Positions 8,884-9,420 of a stretch of DNA of 33,246 nt are shown here, one piece after another. The DNA is taken from NCBI GenBank assembly GCA_026413945.1, contig JAOAJX010000002.1:85536-118781 (forward strand), written 5' to 3'. The position numbers and the translations under genes were made by a program. Below the pieces are notes generated by a model. That model ran no database searches. It worked only from the letters and a program-made list of their open reading frames with translations, and was not told the origin of the DNA. The stretch is from Candidatus Iainarchaeum sp. (GTDB lineage: Archaea; Iainarchaeota; Iainarchaeia; Iainarchaeales; DTGL01). Every line of letters begins with the position of its first letter. The first letter of the stretch is position 1.

Positions 8884-8887
8884 GGTG
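8884..8887 (+). promoter_or_regulatory. Ribosome-binding GGTG that defines the endA start
   Basis: GGTG at 8884-8887 followed by the 5-nt spacer tcaat and then ATA at 8893-8895. This is the same spacing seen before the starts of gdhA, glutaredoxin, the cDPGS-family gene, tfb, PGI/PMI and others in this window, so it is evidence that translation begins at the ATA. Confidence 0.6.
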
Positions 8888-8892
8888 TCAAT

Positions 8893-9420
8893 ATAAGCAA
8901 AAAACCAGAAAAAGTTGCAATACTTTTAGAAAACAAAGCAATAGTGGAAAATCCAAGGTTTAGGGATGAACTTTTGCAAGAATCTTTTGGTGAATTAATA
9001 GAAAGGAAGCTTGTTCTTGACCTCAACGAAGCGCTGTATCTCCTCAAGAAAGGTAGAATAAAAATTAAACATGGAAAAAAAGACTTGACAGAAGAAACAC
9101 TCTTAAATATGGGGATTTCGGAGGATAAAAGATTTTACACAAAATATCTTGTTTTCGAGGATTTGCGCAGCAAAGGTTACGTTGTAAAAACTGGCTATAA
9201 ATTTGGCTTTGATTTTAGGGTTTACCCAAAAGGCAAAAAACCAGGTGAAGCTCACACGCAATATGTTGTAAATGTTTGTAAACAAAATGATGTTTTTAAA
9301 ATGCATGAAATGAGCAGAATGATCCGCCTCAGTGGCAATATTAATACTTTATTAGTACAAGCAGTAGTTGACTCTGAAAACCACATCAACTATTACCAAA
9401 TAATACGTTCCCAGCCATAA
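8893..9420 (+). CDS. endA: tRNA-splicing endonuclease, probable ATA start, catalytic Lys replaced
   Basis: Cuts pre-tRNA introns at bulge-helix-bulge sites. No ATG, GTG or TTG exists between the in-frame TAA at 8869-8871 and the GTG at 8944. Yet the codons from 8893 encode the conserved N-terminal strand (KVAILLENKAIV) of EndA. An ATA at 8893 sits 5 nt after GGTG and gives 175 residues, close to the 179 of the Methanocaldococcus enzyme. Against my recollection of that sequence the C-terminal halves align without gaps: Tyr111 matches Tyr115 and His121 matches His125, but Thr152 replaces the catalytic Lys156. It may therefore be a structural subunit or need a partner. A start at 8944 would remove the first beta strand. 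Divergent from trpS. Confidence 0.9.
   Translation: MSKKPEKVAILLENKAIVENPRFRDELLQESFGELIERKLVLDLNEALYLLKKGRIKIKHGKKDLTEETLLNMGISEDKRFYTKYLVFEDLRSKGYVVKTGYKFGFDFRVYPKGKKPGEAHTQYVVNVCKQNDVFKMHEMSRMIRLSGNINTLLVQAVVDSENHINYYQIIRSQP

Follow-up and report, generated by a model that had tools for sequence, protein, structure and literature searches.

The window, a 33,246-nucleotide stretch of a Candidatus Iainarchaeum contig, carries on its forward strand a gene for EndA, the tRNA-intron lyase (8893..9420), whose reading frame (8893-9417) translates into an alpha-type protein of 175 residues. The N-terminal PF02778 domain (52.0 bits) and the catalytic PF01974 domain (91.2 bits) both score above the cut-off, and the NCBI equivalog model TIGR00324 (endA) gives 105.1 bits (cut-off 59.6). 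An AlphaFold2 model calculated with an input of 74 relatives has a pLDDT of 96.3, and its best match in the PDB is M. jannaschii EndA (1a79), with TM values of 0.90/0.92 and an rmsd of 1.8 Å over 171 columns. The protein is an archaeal EndA by homology, with both domains and the EndA fold. Its gene is single and short, as in the alpha4 type (a single gene of ~180 residues, whose product forms a homotetramer), and its one repeat sets it apart from the fused two- or three-unit proteins of the alpha'2 and epsilon2 types. The start region (8884-8946) has no ATG, GTG or TTG at the start, where codon 8893 reads ATA. This ATA aligns with the ATG start of EndA in relatives of the same genus and is preceded, at a distance of 5 nt, by a GGTG Shine-Dalgarno-like site; the alternative start, GTG 8944, would yield a protein 17 residues shorter. 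The start codon is probably ATA 8893.

The alignment with the M. jannaschii enzyme contains a single gap near residue 60 and is gapless thence to residue 171, as the first-pass annotation had assumed for the C-terminal half. That annotation had also read Tyr115 and His125 of M. jannaschii as conserved and Lys156 as replaced by Thr, and the codons and alignment confirm each assignment. Tyr111, in the place of the general base, is encoded by TAC (9223..9225) and His121, in that of the general acid, by CAC (9253..9255), both on the forward strand. Counting from Y115 and H125 identifies K156 with the first Lys in HSVRKKLL of M. jannaschii, and Thr152 (9346..9348, forward strand) is the residue paired with it. 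The Thr codon, ACT, is two base changes away from any Lys codon, and independently assembled relatives of the same genus also have Thr at this position. Beyond the Lys at residue 136, which lies 16 residues upstream of Thr152, the protein has none in its final 39 residues, so that no alignment shift could provide one at this site. A neighbouring lysine (155 or 157), considered as a stand-in, is not conserved, the relatives having Lys/Arg/Asn/His and Lys/Thr/Glu/Leu, respectively. The window EndA thus lacks one member of the canonical Tyr-His-Lys triad, Tyr and His being present and Lys absent. It is, as had been suggested, a full-length protein that matches neither a standard active subunit nor a structural subunit in decay.

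The named neighbours place the genome in the Diapherotrites (GTDB Iainarchaeota). Among 87 genomes of this phylum searched whole, 73 have EndA, with one match each, and column counts were taken over 70 distinct sequences. All 70 have both Tyr and His, and the Lys156 position is occupied by Thr (63), Ile (4) or Ala (3) and in no case by Lys. One record labelled Diapherotrites (L114) does have the Lys; it groups in the tree with L100 outside the phylum, and its label is therefore probably wrong. The loss recurs in the Aenigmatarchaeota, where none of 54 alpha-type EndA domains with Tyr and His retains Lys (Ala 43, Ser 7, Thr 4). Lys is present in 33/33 EndA sequences of Nanoarchaeota, in 7/7 of other archaea, and in 7/7 of the separate 400-residue epsilon2-type enzymes found in some Aenigmatarchaeota genomes. 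Free trees need 3-4 changes to account for the loss, but grouping every Lys-less sequence in one clade is also acceptable (p-AU 0.85), so both single and multiple losses are compatible with the data. On these sequences, the Lys-less EndA is a genuine variant of a known enzyme, one that extends through a whole archaeal phylum and recurs in the alpha-type EndA of a second; the first-pass annotation had seen neither the phylum-wide extent nor the recurrence.

Other arrangements are also found. In Aenigmatarchaeota (L273-L277, L282) there are tandem EndA genes, both copies Lys-less and one mostly without the catalytic His (K/R/E/G/T), which are an independently evolved alpha-beta type. Fused EndA proteins of 364-372 residues (L270, L271, L272) have Ser at the Lys position of both repeats, with Tyr and His kept in both.

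The residues associated with RNA binding are retained. Arg172 (9406..9408, forward strand as for all residues below) is the probable second Arg of the bulge tweezer, presumably the equivalent of A. fulgidus R302, and is Arg in 68 of the 70 phylum sequences. Lys103 (9199..9201), eight residues before the catalytic Tyr, corresponds to the phosphate-contacting K228 of ARMAN-2 and K239 of TSEN34. Arg145 (9325..9327), conserved in 70/70, corresponds to the bulge-recognising Arg (A. fulgidus R280, ARMAN-2 R275), a role taken from PMC12397907.

The tRNA genes of the organism, which the first-pass annotation had proposed to check for introns, provide ordinary substrates. A total of 39 tRNA genes were read, and every anticodon represented, CAT apart, has a single gene. 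Seven of them, Ile(TAT), Arg(TCG), Arg(CCT), Ser(TGA), Ser(CGA), Pro(TGG) and Asp(GTC), bear an intron at position 37/38, and all seven introns form the canonical bulge-helix-bulge (BHB) motif with an anticodon stem of 5 bp, a bulge of 3 nt on each strand and a complete central helix of 4 bp; the mature lengths are 72-75 or 85-86. Shuffled introns reached the motif in at most two of the seven in 2000 trials. Only one tRNA-Asp gene was detected in the genome, that for Asp(GTC), which bears a 79-nt intron; no intron-less copy was seen. In the relative G019 at least ten tRNA matches are long, and almost all of these show this motif. The suggestion that intron cleavage may differ is therefore supported in part: the difference probably lies in the catalytic chemistry or the layout of the active site and not in the target. 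The intron-bearing tRNA-Ile gene with anticodon TAT (L173, G000:C14:148290-148382) has a counterpart in G019 (L186); this tRNA is rare in archaea, where AUA is usually read by a modified CAT anticodon.

A near-complete Aenigmatarchaeote (G130), with a Lys-less protein as its only EndA, has BHB introns in tRNA-Ile and tRNA-Asn. It was taken in place of the intron-rich Aenigmatarchaeote G087, which was rejected as proof of activity because a Lys-bearing epsilon2 enzyme is also present in that genome. The large assemblies of G130 and G126 show only 11 and 16 tRNA matches, respectively, many with long insertions, and their tRNA genes are probably very intron-rich or split.

These observations suggest, with a probability of about 0.8, that the window EndA is the organism's only splicing endonuclease, an alpha-type enzyme that forms a homomultimer and is active despite the replacement of Lys156 by Thr; the absence of the residue, its fixation across the clade, the single gene, the canonical introns, RtcB and the joint loss of the pathway in one genus are observed, and from them we infer the activity and the homomultimeric state. 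The fold and the RNA-binding residues are intact, and the loss of Lys in 70/70 sequences with invariant Tyr and His is a pattern that a decaying gene would not show. Evidence to the contrary comes from ARMAN-2 EndA, whose complex places Tyr236 opposite the 2'-OH, His251 opposite the leaving oxygen and Lys282 opposite a non-bridging oxygen, and in which Ala at any of the three, the triad Lys included, abolishes cleavage (PMC12397907). In the proposed mechanism, canonical BHB introns would be recognised through the retained arginines, Tyr111 would deprotonate the 2'-OH, His121 would protonate the leaving group, and something other than Lys156 would stabilise the transition-state charge. The exons would then be ligated by RtcB.

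The best candidate for the stabiliser, though a speculative one, is a lysine in the loop between Tyr and His: Lys115 (9235-9237) within PKGKKPGEA (9226..9252) in the window EndA, and the inserted loop, typically [KR][KR]GPK, in the alpha-type EndA of Aenigmatarchaeota. In a comparison of columns, only that of Lys115 is conspicuous as a lysine both new and specific to the phylum (66/70, versus 0/41 of the Lys156-bearing sequences). Some Lys lies between Tyr and His in 70/70 phylum sequences, as it does in most Lys156-bearing EndA. The window EndA has no loop insertion of the crenarchaeal or ARMAN type. The Tyr-His loop of ARMAN-2 abuts the ASL, whose Lys161 touches the RNA at the scissile site and is itself essential (PMC12397907), which makes relocation of the lysine to the loop plausible. 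Two DPANN phyla may thus have a rebuilt active site in their splicing endonuclease, Iainarchaeota and Aenigmatarchaeota each having moved the role of the lost triad Lys to a Tyr-His loop lysine along a sequence route of its own, a proposal that we hold tentatively. About equally likely is that no replacement lysine is needed: catalysis would depend on Tyr and His, with backbone amides, Lys103 and the arginines stabilising the transition state, perhaps at a slower rate. The varied residues at the Lys156 site (Thr, Ala, Ser, Ile) suggest that no particular side chain is required there, and Lys115 is not fully invariant, four of the 70 sequences having another residue in its column. A dispensable Lys is harder to reconcile with its retention elsewhere (41/41) and with the group-specific lysine in the loop.

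It is improbable that the window EndA is a structural partner of a diverged subunit that escaped detection and supplies a Lys-bearing active site, although Crenarchaeota and Nanoarchaeum do have (alpha-beta)2 enzymes, tandem EndA genes or a further, Lys-bearing epsilon2-type gene occur in some Aenigmatarchaeota, and the assembly is 92% complete. A PF01974 search at E <= 10 returned one match each in this genome (G000), in G018 and in G019, a relative assembled as a single 1.24-Mb contig that is 99% complete, and each of the 73 genomes of the phylum with EndA yielded no more than a single match. A PF02778 search of the genome also gave one match and no second EndA-like gene. Pairing with a second subunit, which the first-pass annotation had raised, was accordingly rejected for this genome, which shows no second gene of the kind that defines the (alpha-beta)2 type. 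Structural subunits, moreover, lose the catalytic His, as in the partner copies of Aenigmatarchaeota (K/R/E/G/T), whereas Tyr and His are invariant here.

Slightly less probable still is that EndA lacks activity or has some other role, the tRNA introns being removed by an unrelated nuclease. The inactivation of ARMAN-2 EndA by mutation of the triad Lys speaks for this reading; the conservation of Tyr, His and both bulge arginines and the persistence of the EndA recognition motif in the introns speak against it, as does the distribution of the pathway. The RtcB ligase is present in this genome and in 47/53 relatives, and BHB introns and RtcB together are what is expected for functional tRNA splicing. 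In the genomes of one genus, g22 (G025, G034 and G040; 94%, 96% and 86% complete), neither EndA nor RtcB was found, and all 119 tRNA matches are of intron-less tRNA length (<= 85 nt), an apparent joint loss of EndA, RtcB and tRNA introns. The presence and absence of introns, Lys-less EndA and RtcB thus coincide, and removal of the introns by the Lys-less enzyme is the simplest explanation. The three genomes are incomplete and, belonging to a single genus, count as one event, which is support and not proof. In seven genomes (G001, G002, G004, G016, G019, G035, G041) RtcB is interrupted by an insert several hundred residues long, giving open reading frames of ~1000 residues; these insertions are probably inteins at one site. 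Finally, a sequencing error or misalignment as the source of the missing Lys is ruled out by the two base changes required, the agreement of dozens of independent genomes and the Lys-free C-terminus.

According to reviews, Tyr, His and Lys are conserved in every one of the four EndA types (PMC6379350). A 2026 study, which used the same Pfam models to find EndA, took normal function for granted throughout (PMC12918454). No published description of a Lys-less EndA was found in the literature searched, which covered few subscription journals. If the Lys-less enzymes splice, which is very probable for the tiny archaea of the Iainarchaeota and probable for the Aenigmatarchaeota, they would constitute a large natural exception to the three-residue catalytic rule. 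Annotation models such as TIGR00324, which scores the window EndA above its cut-off, call such enzymes ordinary EndA and so mask the change. As a natural set that provides the sole EndA in at least one phylum, with the sole detected tRNA-Asp to process, they would make the long-debated role of the lysine directly testable, and likewise the role of the extra loop lysines (CSL, ASL).

Among known systems, M. jannaschii EndA (alpha4, PDB 1a79) shares with the window EndA its domain order, length, fold, Tyr, His and single gene; the two differ in Lys156 versus Thr and in the Tyr-His loop, ERGANIDKE versus PKGKKPGEA. The epsilon2 enzyme of ARMAN-2 (PDB 4fz2, 9w2k) shares Tyr-His and the arginine for bulge recognition, and its further essential loop lysine beside the triad, K161 (PMC12397907), is a parallel to the candidate loop lysine of the window EndA. 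It differs in being a three-unit fusion that keeps Lys282, whose replacement by Ala is inactivating, and in having its loop (ASL) N-terminal to the catalytic unit, an insertion that the window EndA lacks. The (alpha-beta)2 enzymes of Nanoarchaeum equitans and Crenarchaeota have a homologous fold divided between two genes, one of which is catalytic with the full triad, whereas the window genome has one gene. The alpha-type EndA of Aenigmatarchaeota (e.g. L254, L236) also lacks the Lys (Ala/Ser/Thr) and keeps Tyr and His; it differs in having mostly Ala at that position and a longer loop with [KR][KR]GPK, and some of these genomes, unlike that of the window, carry a Lys-bearing epsilon2 enzyme in addition.
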